A DNA stretch of 64,000 nucleotides from the NCBI GenBank assembly GCA_949519155.1, contig CATIQU010000035.1:124001-188000 (forward strand). The letters are read 5' to 3'. Both the position numbers and the translations under genes were made by a program. The DNA comes from Polaribacter sp. SA4-10 (GTDB lineage: Bacteria; Bacteroidota; Bacteroidia; Flavobacteriales; Flavobacteriaceae). Each line of letters starts with the position of its first letter. Position 1 is the stretch's first letter. The notes beneath the pieces were generated by a model, which saw only the letters and a program-made list of their open reading frames with translations, made no database searches and was not told the origin of the DNA. Positions 9,424 through 54,496 of this stretch are shown here, piece after piece.

Positions 9424-9969
9424 TTACTTTTTATTGAAAACATTATTTAATTGACTAAAATCGAACATATCAGTGTCAACTTGGATATTGTTCATCATTT
9501 CCATGATTCTTGCTGGGTTCATGTTTTTACCCAATAACCTGGCAATACCTACTCCAACCTCTTTACTATATCCAAAAGCGATTACTTCGTTTATATGATC
9601 CGTTTCTCCAGTATAATATAACTTCATATTCATTCCTTTTGCTTTGAAGCTACCTAAGGTTTTATATGTTTTGTTGGTGAAAATATTTTTTAGTTTTGAT
9701 TTTTCTACTTCATAAGCGGTATCATTCTCATTTGTTTTTTTTAAAAATACAGCATTTATTTTTTTAATACTTTTTACCGTTTCTTTTACTTCTTCAGAAG
9801 CATTTTCCTTTGGCGTAAGCATCAATCCAACAGGGATATCACCATACATAAAGGCCTCCTTTTCACTACTGTTTATAATATATGCTTGTAGTGATTTTTC
9901 ATTATTACAGGCACTTAATAAAAGAAGTAAAGAAAAAAAGAATAGTATAAGGGTTGACTTTTTTTTCAT
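9424..9969 (-). CDS. DUF4252 lipoprotein
   Basis: 181 aa. The N-terminus is a lipoprotein signal (MKKKSTLILFFFSLLLLLSAC) with lipobox LSAC and lipidated Cys21. The rest matches the DUF4252 pattern: a central segment on a short loop (ASEEVKETVKSIKKINAVFL), then TYKTLGSFKAKGMNMKLYYT. Function is not known for the family. It is the last gene of a four-gene operon (ECF sigma factor, probable anti-sigma-like membrane protein, DUF4252, DUF4252), so a sigma-controlled envelope role is likely but inferred. Confidence 0.8.
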   Translation of the reverse strand: MKKKSTLILFFFSLLLLLSACNNEKSLQAYIINSSEKEAFMYGDIPVGLMLTPKENASEEVKETVKSIKKINAVFLKKTNENDTAYEVEKSKLKNIFTNKTYKTLGSFKAKGMNMKLYYTGETDHINEVIAFGYSKEVGVGIARLLGKNMNPARIMEMMNNIQVDTDMFDFSQLNNVFNKK

Positions 9970-11647: not shown

Positions 11648-13091
11648 ATGAAATCTGCTATTTCTTACAAAATTTTACTGTTTTTATTAATATCACTACT
11701 TTTTTCTAATTGCGCTTCTAAAATGGAGGTGATTCCAGAAGAAATTGAAATAAACGATTTTGTATGGAAGGGCTTAAACGCCTACTATTTTTTGGCAAAG
11801 TTCAAAGCCAGACTTAGCAGATACCCGTTTTAACTCTCAAGCAACACTAAACAATTACTTGGCGGGATTTTCTAATTCAGAAAATATTTTTGAAAGCCTG
11901 CTTTTAAGACCAACAGACCGATTTTCTTGGATTGTTGATGATTATACGGTGCTAGAAAATGCTTTTCTGGGCGTTACGCTAAACAACGGAATGGAGTTTG
12001 GTTTGGTTCGTTATAAAACGACAACTAGTAATGTTTTTGGTTATGTGAGGTATGTAATTCCAGCATCGGATGCAGCTACAAAGGGAATTATAAGAGGTAT
12101 GGTTTTTAGTCAGATCGATGGTATTCAAATTACAGACACCAACTATTCTTCTTTATTAAACAACAATTCTTACACCATAGGACTTGCAGATTTTAATGAT
12201 GGAGATCCAATTTCTACAGCGACAACAATTAACCTTATTAAATCTCAATTAGAAGAAAATCCTGTTAAAATCACCAAGGTTTTTGATGAAGTAATGGGAA
12301 ATAAAATAGGGTACCTCATTTATAATCAGTTTTCTGCTTCTTTTGATGCAGAATTGAACAATGCCTTTTTAACCTTTAAAAATTAAAATATCACAGACTT
12401 AATTGTCGATTTACGCTATAATGGTGGCGGTTCTGTTCGTGCAGCAACCTATTTAGGCGCCATGATTACTGAACAATTTAACGAACAAGTATTTTCGAAA
12501 CAAGTTTGGAATGAAAAGGTTTTGGCTTCTGTGACTCCAGAATATTTTATTAATAGATTTCCAAATCAAATTAATAACGGAATGATTACAGAGAACATCA
12601 ACTCCGTAAATTTATCTACGATCTATTTTATTGTTTCTGGAAGTTCTGCATCAGCCTCCGAACTAGTGATTAACAGCTTACGTTCTTATATCGATGTAAA
12701 ACTTGTAGGCATAAAAACTGTTGGTAAACAAGAAGGGTCAATTACATTATATGATGCAGATAATTTAAGAAAAAATGGCCCCAATTTTAATACAAATCAC
12801 AGGTATGCACTACAACCTATTGTACTTGAGATTACAAACAAAGACAATCAAAATGAAATCAATGGATATCTTCCTGGAGTTACATTGCCTGGAATTGAAT
12901 TAGGAGAAGATTATGGAAATTTAGGCGTTTTAGGTGAACGAACAGACCCACTTGTTGAGCGTACAATTAATTATATTTTAACAGGTGCTAAAGGTGGATT
13001 TAATTCTCAAAAAAAGGAGCATATAAAAGAAATATCAAATTCAAAATTAACGACACCAATTGGAAACAATATGTACCTTGAACTCAAATAA
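11648..13091 (+). pseudogene. S41-family (C-terminal processing) peptidase, disrupted
   Basis: Three tracked ORFs are one gene. The first part is a lipoprotein signal (MKSAISYKILLFLL...SNC). At a run of six T (11788-11793) the frame slips: removing one T turns YYFLAK into YYFWQSSKPDLADTRFNSQ, which runs straight into the second ORF. The second ORF ends at an in-frame TAA (12384-12386). Past it, the same frame continues NITDLIVDLRYNGGGS, the S41 core, into the third ORF with GSSASASELV (catalytic Ser region) and KTVGK (Lys). A PDZ-like region lies in the middle. Two independent lesions argue for real inactivation, although sequence error could explain the T-run slip. Family knowledge: these secreted Ser/Lys proteases trim exported proteins. 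Confidence 0.88.
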
Positions 13092-48885: not shown

Positions 48886-50082
48886 ATGAGTTCATTTTCT
48901 CCCTTCAGTAAAGAAGAATTGTTACCCCAGACAGAAATGCTTGAAATTAAAAAACGAAAAGGAACTTTGTTTATTGGATTACCAAAAGAATCTCACCTAG
49001 GCGAAAAAAGGGTTTGCCTAACACCTGATGCCGTTGGTGCGTTTACGATTCACGGGCATCGAATTGTTGTAGAAACTGGTGCTGGAGATGGCGCAAACTA
49101 TACCGACAAAGAATATGCAGATGCGGGAGCAAAAATCTCTTACAATACAGAAGAAGCATTTAAATGTAACATTATTCTAAAAGTAGCACCACCAACAGAA
49201 GAAGAAATTGGATATATAAATCCACAAGCAATTTTAATTTCTTCTTTACAATTAAAGACACAAAACAAACAATATTTCGAAAGTTTAGTAAAAAAAAGGA
49301 TTACTGCAATTGCTTTTGACTACATTAAAGATGAAGAAGGAGCCTATCCAATTGTAAAATCACTGAGTGAAATTGCAGGAACAGCTTCTGTTTTAATTGC
49401 TGGTGAGTTGATGAGTGGAGTGAATAAAGGAAATGGATTGCTTTTTGGGAATATTGGAGGCGTACCCCCAACGGGTGTTGTTATTTTAGGCGCCGGCACC
49501 GTCGGAGAATTTGCAGCCAGAACCGCTATTGGACTTGGCGCAAGAGTAAAAGTTTTTGACAATTCGATTACTAAATTACGAAGATTACAACAGTGTTTAA
49601 ATACACCCATATATACATCTACTGTACAACCGAAATCACTCGCCAAAGCATTAATGCGATGCGATGTTGCCATTGGTGCAATTCGAGGAAAAAACAGATC
49701 CCCTATTATTGCTACAGAATCAATGATTGAAAACATGAAAGAAGGTGCTGTCATTGTTGATGTGAGTATTGACAGAGGTGGTTGTTTTGAAACATCAAAC
49801 ATTACAACACATAAAACGCCAACATTTATCAAACATGGCGTTGTGCATTATTGCGTACCAAATATTCCTGCACGCTATGCAAGAACCGCATCGGTGTCGA
49901 TTAGTAATATTTTTACTCCTTATTTATTGAATATAGCAGATGAAGGTGGATTTGAAAATACTGCTCGGTTTGACAAAAGTTTAAGAAATGGCATGTACTT
50001 TTATCACGGTGTTCTTACCAATAGAACAGTCGCAGATTGGTTTGATCTTCCTTTTAGAGATATTAACTTATTGATATCATAA
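48886..50082 (+). CDS. ald: Alanine dehydrogenase
   Basis: 398 aa. The NAD motif is VVILGAGTVGEFAARTAIGLGA. GLPKESHLGEKRVCLTPDAV at the N-terminus holds the substrate-binding Arg/Lys, and HYCVPNIPARYARTASVSISN the C-terminal signature. It reversibly makes pyruvate, ammonium and NADH from alanine. The first 20 residues exceed the family start, which is normal in flavobacteria. Coupled to tsaE. Confidence 0.94.
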   Translation: MSSFSPFSKEELLPQTEMLEIKKRKGTLFIGLPKESHLGEKRVCLTPDAVGAFTIHGHRIVVETGAGDGANYTDKEYADAGAKISYNTEEAFKCNIILKVAPPTEEEIGYINPQAILISSLQLKTQNKQYFESLVKKRITAIAFDYIKDEEGAYPIVKSLSEIAGTASVLIAGELMSGVNKGNGLLFGNIGGVPPTGVVILGAGTVGEFAARTAIGLGARVKVFDNSITKLRRLQQCLNTPIYTSTVQPKSLAKALMRCDVAIGAIRGKNRSPIIATESMIENMKEGAVIVDVSIDRGGCFETSNITTHKTPTFIKHGVVHYCVPNIPARYARTASVSISNIFTPYLLNIADEGGFENTARFDKSLRNGMYFYHGVLTNRTVADWFDLPFRDINLLIS

Positions 50083-50377: not shown

Positions 50378-53300
50378 ATGATCAGTAAAAAAAACATGTG
50401 GAACCCAAGAATACTCATAAGTATTTTGTTTTTAATATTCCATATTCAATTGTTTAGTCAAACAATAACAGTGAATGACTCAGGGAATACGCCAGAAGAA
50501 CTTGTTGATATATTAATTGGAAATAGCTGTATTTCAAAATCAAACTTTAATATATCTTCAAACAAATCTGTTGCGTATTTCAACAACAATTCGGGTAGTT
50601 TTCCTATTTCTGTAGGAGCAATAATACGAAATGGAATTGCTGAATATTCTGGTGGTCTCTACACAAATGAGAATATGAGTAGCCAAATTTCAATGAATGG
50701 AGATGTAGATCTACAAAATATCAGCGATTAATCTGGGCAGAGTTCAACGATAACAGATGTCGCTTTTTTGGAGTTTGACTTTATACCTTTAGCTAATACT
50801 ATAAATTTTAATTATTTATTAGCTTCCAACGAATATGGAGAGTATCAATGTAGTTTTAGTGATGTTTTTGCCATTATTTTGACAAATATGAATACTGGTG
50901 AATCTGTAAATTTAGCTGTATTACCAAATACAGATACACCCATTTCTGTTAAAAATATTAGAGACAAAACCTATAATGGTAGTTGTACCTCAATTAACCC
51001 AAGTTTTTTTAGCACTTATAATGTAGACTCTCCATTGAATTCTTCTTTAAATATGCGAGGTCATACTAAAGTAATGAATGCAAGTGCCAGTGTTATTATT
51101 GAAACTCCTTATCGAATAAAGTTTGCCATTGGTGATCCTAATGATAGTAGTTTTGATTCCGCAGTTTTTATTGAAACAGGTAGTTTTGAAGCCAGTTTTA
51201 GTTTGGGTGAAGATCAAGAAATTTGTGAAGGCAATGAAGTTACTTTAACATCAAATTATACAAATACGACTGATTTTAATTATGTATGGTATAAAGATGG
51301 AGTGCTTATTCCTGGAGCATCAGACCCCTTTTTAAAAACATCATTAACAGGTACTTATAAATTAATTATAACTAACTCAACTGCTAGTTGTAGCCTAGAA
51401 GATCAAGTTATAGTAAAAAGACTAGAGGTAAATCAACCGAATTCTATAACTGAATGCGCAACAAACAATTCCGTTGCATTTAACTTGACAATTAATGACC
51501 ACTCAGTTTTAGGTGTAGACAACAATTTCTATGATATAGTGTATTATAATACATTAAACAATGCTACTAATAATATTCCAATAAATATTAATGACATAGA
51601 AAACTACCTTAGTATAGGTAATGAAACAATTTATTTGAAGTTAAAAAATAAAATAACGGAGGATTTTTGTAATGAAATCCTGTCTTTTAATTTAATGACT
51701 GTTAGTGTAGCAGCAACGACACCAGAATCTATTTTAGTTTGTGCATCCTCTGACACAGTCAATATCCCTTTAGAAGCTGAATCACAAATTTTAACGAATT
51801 TAAATCCATTAAATTATGTAGTAAGTTATTTTACATCACAAAATGATGCCAATAATAATGAAAATGAGATTACAACTCCTACAGATTTTCAATTATCAAC
51901 GGTAAACACAGACCCTGTTGATATATGGGCTAGAGTCGAAAATCTTTTCAATAGCAATTGTTTCAGTACCATAAATTTTACGATAAGTATTAGTCAGTTA
52001 CCATTGGTTGACGCATTTCCAACCCAATACGCTTGTTTAGATTATATATTACCATCTTTAGTTAATGGAAATTACTATACAGAACCTGGAGGCAATGGAA
52101 CACAATTGTTTCCAGGAGATATTATTACCGAGAATACATTACTATATATTTATAATATAAACAGTGATGGCTGTGAAAATGAAACTAGTTTTTATATAGA
52201 TATCGCAGACGAATTCACCATCGAAACTGAGTATTGTGAACAGTTTGTAATTCCAGATTATCAAAATGCATTTTTTTATACTGCACCACTTGGTCCTAAT
52301 GGTACTGGAGAAATAATACCCGTAGAAACTATTTTAACAGAGAGTCAATCTATTTATTTTTACGTAGAAAATGAGGATGGAAGTTTTTGCTTAGAAAAAG
52401 AGTTTCCGATTATTATAAATATACTTCCGCCTGTGGACACTCTTGATGAAGTGATTACTTGTAATTCATATGTTTTACCATCCATTACAAATGAAAACTA
52501 TTATGCGGGTCCAAATGGGAGTGGAAACTCCTTTAATGCTGGTGATATAATTACAACAAGCAAATATTTCTAGATTTATAACCTTGACCCTGTTACAAAC
52601 TGTGAGAGTCAAAGTTTGTTCAGAATAACGATTATAGATACAAATCAATTTGAAGATTTAAGTGTGTGTGCAAATTATACAATTCCAAACTCAATACTTG
52701 GAAATTACTATACACAACCCAATGGTGAAGGAAATATATTTCCTAGTGGATTAGCAATAACATCCTCTCAAACTATTTATTTCTATGCACCAGAAGTAAC
52801 TACAACTCCAAATTGCACCTTTAATATACCTATAAACATAACAATTAATACACCACCTCTTGTAGATGAGTTGGAAGATATTTTGATTTGCGAAAATGAT
52901 TTATTTATCTTGCCTTCATTAACAAATGGAAATTATTACACAGCGTCAAACAAAGAAGGTACACCACTATTTGAAGGTGATATTATAAATACAACACAAA
53001 CAATATACATCTATAATGAGAATGCTTTATGTGAAGCCGAAACAAGCTTTTTAATTGAGATAAGAACAAAGCCTTTGGTAGATAATTTTACAGATATACT
53101 TAGCTGTGATCCATATATTTTACCCACACTTACCAATGGAACATATTTCACAGAATCCAATGGACAAGGAACACAATTAAACCCGGGAGATATTATAGAA
53201 AATACACAATTAATATACATTTACAATAGCCATGATGATCTTGTATCTTGTGCGAACGAAAATGTATTTCAAGTAAATATTCTTGGTATTGAAGTAGACA

Positions 53301-54496
53301 AACCTGATGATAAAATAGCTTGTGAAACATACGAACTACCCGTTTTGACTGTTGGGGAATACTTTACAAAACCAAATGGATTAGGGACGCAATTAAACCC
53401 AGGAACGATTATTAATGAAACACAAACAATATACATTTATGCTGAAAACGGAAACCGTTTTTTATGCAAAGATGAGCACCAATTCACAATTACAGTGTTT
53501 AACAAACCAATCCTAGAAAATTTTCCAGATATAGTCGCTTGTGAAAGCATTACATTGCCAACTCTAGCTATAGAAAACACAACCATAGAATAATATAATA
53601 GCCCCAATCGTGTTGGACTTATTGATCCTTCTGAATATACGATTTCGGAAATTGGAACAAAAGAAATATATGTCTATGCATACCCTACAGGAAATGCTAA
53701 TTGTTTTGCTGAAGATCAGTTTCAAATAACAGTGAATCCATTGCTGAATTTAGTGATAAAGGGCGGTGTTATTTGTGTAGATCAAGATACTGGATTGACA
53801 ACAAACCCTTTTTTATTAGAATCTAAATTAGAAGAAAGTAAATTTACTGTCCATTGGTATTTAAATAATGAACTCGTAGGAACAGGGCCAAATCACAATG
53901 CAACTAAAGCAGGTGACTATAGAGTAGAGACTGTAAAGTTAACAGTAGATAATGGTGTAGATTGTAATTATGCACCTACAATTGTTGTCGTAGAAGCTTC
54001 CATCCCAAAATTTGAAGTTCGGTTTCTAACAGAAGAATTTGTTGATGTATACGCTATAGAAGTACATACAATAGAACAAGGGCTCGGGGAATATCTATAC
54101 GCGATAGATAGTGGCCCATTTCAATCTTCAAATCAATTTGAAAATGTGATTCCTGGTGAATACACGATCACCATAAGAGATGTTTCAGAAATTTGCAATG
54201 ATTTTAGATTAAATTTTGTTGCGATAAAGTATCCTAAATTTTTCACTCCAAATAATGATGGAAAAAATGATACTTGGAACATTACAGATCTAAAGAATGA
54301 TTCAAATGCAGTTATAAAAATATTTACTCGGTTTGGAAAATTAATCACAATCATAAAGCCAAACGGAATCGGCTGGGATGGAGTAAACAAGAATGGTCTT
54401 ACAGGACACTCAAATGATTATTGGTTTTTGTTATCATACACTAAAAATGGTGACATAAAAACCTATAGAAATCATTTTTCATTACTAAGAAAATAA
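50378..54496 (+). pseudogene. T9SS type-B surface protein with choice-of-anchor L domain, three in-frame stops
   Basis: The three tracked ORFs plus the piece from 53594 to 54496 are one reading frame of 1,372 codons: TAA at 50729-50731, TAG at 52571-52573 and TAA at 53591-53593, no frameshift. Signal peptide (ILISILFLIFHIQLFSQ). A choice-of-anchor L domain (NTPEELVDILIGNSC..., EFDFIPLANTINFNYLLASNEYGEY) spans the first stop. An Ig-like stretch, then eight repeats (about 70 residues each) follow. The C-terminus is the type-B sorting/gliding-associated domain (KFFTPNNDGKNDTWNI ... NHFSLLRK). As sequenced, no full protein is made; without the C-terminus no T9SS sorting. Confidence 0.9.
52020..53720 (+). 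repeat. Eight tandem ~70-residue protein repeats
   Basis: Repeated unit: Cys, then LPxLxNGNYYT, NGxGTQLxPGDII, then YIYN or YFYA. Eight copies, near 52030, 52235, 52455, 52660, 52885, 53100, 53320 and 53535. Stop codons fall in copies 3 and 8. DNA is diverged, so copies are old. Confidence 0.8.

Follow-up and report, generated by a model that had tools for sequence, protein, structure and literature searches.

How does a gene for a large secreted surface protein come to hold three stop codons in a reading frame that never shifts? The question arises in the window analyzed here, a stretch of 64,000 nucleotides from Polaribacter sp. SA4-10, for which the original prediction had offered three explanations: very recent decay, stops that are read through, or erroneous bases. 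Translation of 50378-54496, a frame of 1373 codons including the terminal TAA, confirmed in-frame stops at 50729, 52571, and 53591:

50378..54496, plus strand: very probable pseudogene, its intact counterpart being a T9SS type-B sorted surface protein of ~1,370 aa with choice-of-anchor L; a single frame with three internal stops and 13 syntenic open orthologues
50729..50731, plus strand: internal stop 1, TAA at codon 118, within the anchor-L region; a sense codon in 21/21 aligned homologues
52571..52573, plus strand: internal stop 2, TAG at codon 732, where the Y-I-Y motif has its Tyr (alignment and motif listing)
53591..53593, plus strand: internal stop 3, TAA at codon 1072 (translation and alignment)

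The open stretches following stops 1, 2, and 3 span 613, 339, and 300 codons and are homologous throughout; three in-frame stops joined by homologous stretches of this length lie far beyond chance. The domains on both sides share the frame, as had been claimed, with NF038133 matched after stop 1, repeats flanking stop 2, and TIGR04131/PF13585 matched after stop 3. The alignment of the TAG with the Tyr of a YIYN motif likewise holds, both against the sibling repeats and in 16 of the 19 homologues that reach that column. The encoded protein has the following parts:

50378..50461, plus strand: probable Sec signal peptide (MISKKNMWNPRILISILFLIFHIQLFSQ), judged by eye from its hydrophobic core and position
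50744..51187, plus strand: choice-of-anchor L domain, the part matched after stop 1 (NF038133, E 6e-34)
52049..53677, plus strand: array of ~70-aa repeats, each ending in Y-I-Y; the motif listing gives eight units with starts at codons 558-1060
54224..54490, plus strand: intact T9SS type-B C-terminal sorting domain (TIGR04131, E 8e-27; PF13585, E 4e-12)

The sorting domain scores 93 bits against a cut-off of 35 for TIGR04131 (Bac_Flav_CTERM) and 47 bits against a cut-off of 27 for PF13585 (CHU_C), and it also exceeds the cut-off in a whole-genome profile search. T9SS sorting needs this C-terminal domain. It is located after the third stop, which makes it reasonable to expect that T9SS could sort no truncated product. 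Loss of the secretion system itself was rejected as the cause of inactivation: SprA (TIGR04189, 2393 bits), the component of the machinery that was searched for, is present in the genome and open over 2435 codons.

Comparison with related genomes indicates what the intact gene looks like. Most named relatives of the gene come from Flavobacterium, the genus in which the genome itself is placed by its relatives, and 13 Flavobacterium relatives carry an orthologue at the same chromosomal place, all of them open, with lengths of 1301-1388 codons. Two neighbors define this place:

48886..50082, plus strand: upstream syntenic gene, alanine-dehydrogenase-like by sequence; adjoins the orthologue in 13/13 relatives, at 77-87% identity
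54527..54925, plus strand: downstream syntenic gene with a DUF4258 domain (PF14076); adjoins the orthologue in 13/13 relatives

The named collection adds 14 full-length homologues, likewise open, and all four of those checked lie at other loci. The homologues aligned are free of stops at all three columns. Identity between the window copy and its 13 intact syntenic orthologues is ~43-52%, and the nearest relative found stands at ~52% protein identity in collections that held no same-species strain. Against homologues of near-equal length, the window copy aligns end to end with no frame change; relative to the 13 orthologues, its private indels amount to a single 1-residue insertion, with no deletion among them, so the description of the gene as free of frameshifts was right. 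One intact syntenic orthologue, of 1301 codons, evolves much faster than the rest (changes at 54 of 243 invariant columns, plus many private indels), perhaps through diversifying selection or partial replacement. The gene is patchily distributed. Among the related genomes searched, those with matches at E ≤ 1e-20 are a minority, so the gene is accessory and dispensable. A redundant duplicate was considered and rejected, as the gene occupies its ancestral locus and everything else matched in the genome is either one of its own repeats or a distant paralogue on contig C31, at 27-29% identity.

We then asked whether the stops belong to the organism or to its assembly. The genome is a 2.13-Mb draft in 35 contigs with an estimated completeness of 93.6%, and low-quality reads are reported to produce false internal stops more than they do frameshifts (PMC11017572). 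Weak assemblies do acquire such stops, and base miscalls or a mixed-strain consensus might disguise a gene that is intact in the organism. The distribution of damage, however, argues against this. A coding-frame scan of sampled stretches totaling 688 kb (about a third of the genome), with candidates inspected, showed that most in-frame junctions are ordinary neighboring genes sharing a frame, and it yielded at least seven other genes broken by nonsense changes, frameshifts, or both:

window 11700-13091, plus strand: S41-family peptidase; frameshift near 11.8 kb and TAA at 12384
C35:203.2-204.7 kb, plus strand: PAS-domain histidine kinase; in-frame stops at 203293, 203890, and 204385
C33:33208-34798, minus strand: amidohydrolase (PF07969); in-frame TAG and TAA, frameshift absent
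C35:9.3-10.9 kb, minus strand: ATPase; frameshift and TGA at 9601 (named from translation alone)
C35:95.9-96.4 kb, plus strand: beta-barrel protein; looks frameshifted (named from translation alone)
C35:116.5-117.1 kb, plus strand: ECF-type sigma factor; looks frameshifted (named from translation alone)
C23:6.7-7.3 kb, plus strand: HsdR-like protein; looks frameshifted (named from translation alone)

Close homologues of the S41 peptidase are open in eight relatives (471-505 codons). The histidine kinase on C35 has a possible frameshift at its N-terminus, and a related kinase on C29 is apparently frameshifted near 8.0-8.4 kb. An open relative of the amidohydrolase, of 561 codons, lies at C33:17930-18877.

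In total, 15 disruptions fall in eight genes, five of which carry two or more, and when disruptions were placed at random 20,000 times over 555 coding segments, no placement clustered in this way. Neighboring genes at the locus are unbroken, as is SprA over its full length. In addition, miscalls would require that three errors in one 4.1-kb gene all made stops, although 3-5% of random substitutions in this gene do so. Random base errors are therefore unlikely, because the disruptions cluster in few genes. Decay in unselected genes yields clustering of this kind; regional assembly trouble or strain mixing could likewise cluster disruptions, and an assembly origin for the stops, taken as a whole, retains a small share of the probability.

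If the stops are real, they might be bypassed. Read-through or stop suppression would produce the full-length protein, with the stops lowering or regulating its output, and frequent read-through of internal stops has been proposed for prokaryotes (Belinky et al. 2021, PMC7918605). The window gene resembles those cases in its in-frame stops and constrained-looking frame, and it keeps conserved residues both before and after each stop. It departs from them in two respects: that study kept only stops common to orthologues of two or more species, whereas the stops here are private to one genome and conserved in no relative, and they number three. The decoding evidence also runs against read-through. 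No stop-reading anticodon, and hence no suppressor tRNA, was found among the 33 readable tRNAs of the genome (one contig-end fragment was unread). TAA (~77%) and TAG (~17%) together terminate ~94% of the long frames in the sample, so both are normal terminators, and two of the three internal stops are TAA, the main one. Their contexts (TAAT, TAGA, and TAAT) are common among normal terminators. An alternative genetic code was rejected, as TAA, TAG, and TGA each terminate long frames. All three codons also occur among the disruptions of the genome, which suits mutation and not recoding. Finally, losses at three stops in series would multiply, leaving very little protein. With private stops in the main terminator codon and no suppressor tRNA, the read-through proposed earlier found no support, and we regard it as very unlikely. 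The same low standing applies to its narrower form, in which low-level read-through of all three stops would supply a small amount of surface protein as a means of expression control. Were read-through shown, this would be a rarity: one gene in which three successive stops are bypassed.

The persistence of open stretches of 613, 339, and 300 codons might also suggest that internal re-initiation yields a separate functional protein from each fragment. The start codons required are scarce, however: ATG is absent for 52 codons after stop 1 and absent altogether after stops 2 and 3. The last fragment alone has the sorting domain and lacks a signal peptide, the others lack the sorting domain, and a split gene occurs in no relative. 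We consider this the least credible of the explanations weighed here.

The remaining option, very recent decay, fits the evidence. The constraint tests rest on invariant columns and branch lengths, which bound the event and give no date. Of 195 columns that do not vary among the 13 orthologues, 6 have changed in the window copy; intact copies taken in turn through the same test show 0-16 changes in twelve cases and 54 in the fast-evolving one. The terminal branch of the window copy is 3.9 times that in the tree of six neighboring control genes, within the range of most intact copies (1.6-5.9, with one at 11). Because few invariant columns are broken and the branch is not unusually long, inactivation was probably recent and confined to a small late part of the branch. 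Three stops imply ~64-100 neutral changes by computation, too few to show on a branch of ~0.5 changes/site. Accordingly, no excess change relative to intact copies is seen, and the excess expected from relaxed constraint falls below visibility on such a branch. That the rest of the sequence seems as constrained as intact copies would be predicted by recency and by read-through alike; the constraint tests fit a gene that is recent and dead and one that is still used equally, and cannot separate the two.

The original prediction also implied that neutral decay would by now have brought indels, and this expectation fails. If substitutions outnumber indels by 10:1 to 20:1 and the nonsense share is 6%, the probability of three nonsense changes free of any frameshift is 0.07-0.20, somewhat smaller with the gene-specific nonsense shares of 3-5%. 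As a yardstick, we prefer the empirical mix of disruptions in the genome itself over assumed ratios. With the target counted, this mix comprises about 10 nonsense changes and 5 frameshifts, and three of three nonsense would be expected at ~0.2-0.3, or about a quarter. On either estimate, the lack of a frameshift is unremarkable. The nonsense-only pattern is not exceptional, as the amidohydrolase of the same genome, a second nonsense-only pseudogene, repeats it.

Thus, of the three explanations offered at the outset, recent decay stands. We hold with considerable confidence that an accessory gene for a T9SS surface protein has here become a nonsense pseudogene, and recently so, within a gene-losing genome. 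The gene, for a large T9SS-secreted protein that runs from a signal peptide through a choice-of-anchor L domain and repeats to a type-B sorting domain, would have lost its function in this lineage. An initial stop, by severing the sorting domain, would have left the frame under little selection; a second and a third nonsense change would then have accrued ahead of any frameshift. The order of events, the absence of a full-length protein, and the loss of selection as cause are what we infer from these comparisons. As a pseudogene, the locus is minor on its own; it captures the loss of a large T9SS surface protein at an early stage, within a small Flavobacterium genome that has several other decayed genes.

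Two groups of known systems frame this conclusion. The window copy shares domain order, length, and locus with the T9SS type-B choice-of-anchor L proteins of Flavobacterium (NF038133 plus TIGR04131) but differs from them by its three in-frame stops, and a full-length product is not expected. With recent bacterial nonsense pseudogenes, it shares a recognizable ancestral frame, multiple disabling changes, and a genome that contains other decayed genes; it differs in having been disabled by substitutions only, a pattern found again in the amidohydrolase.
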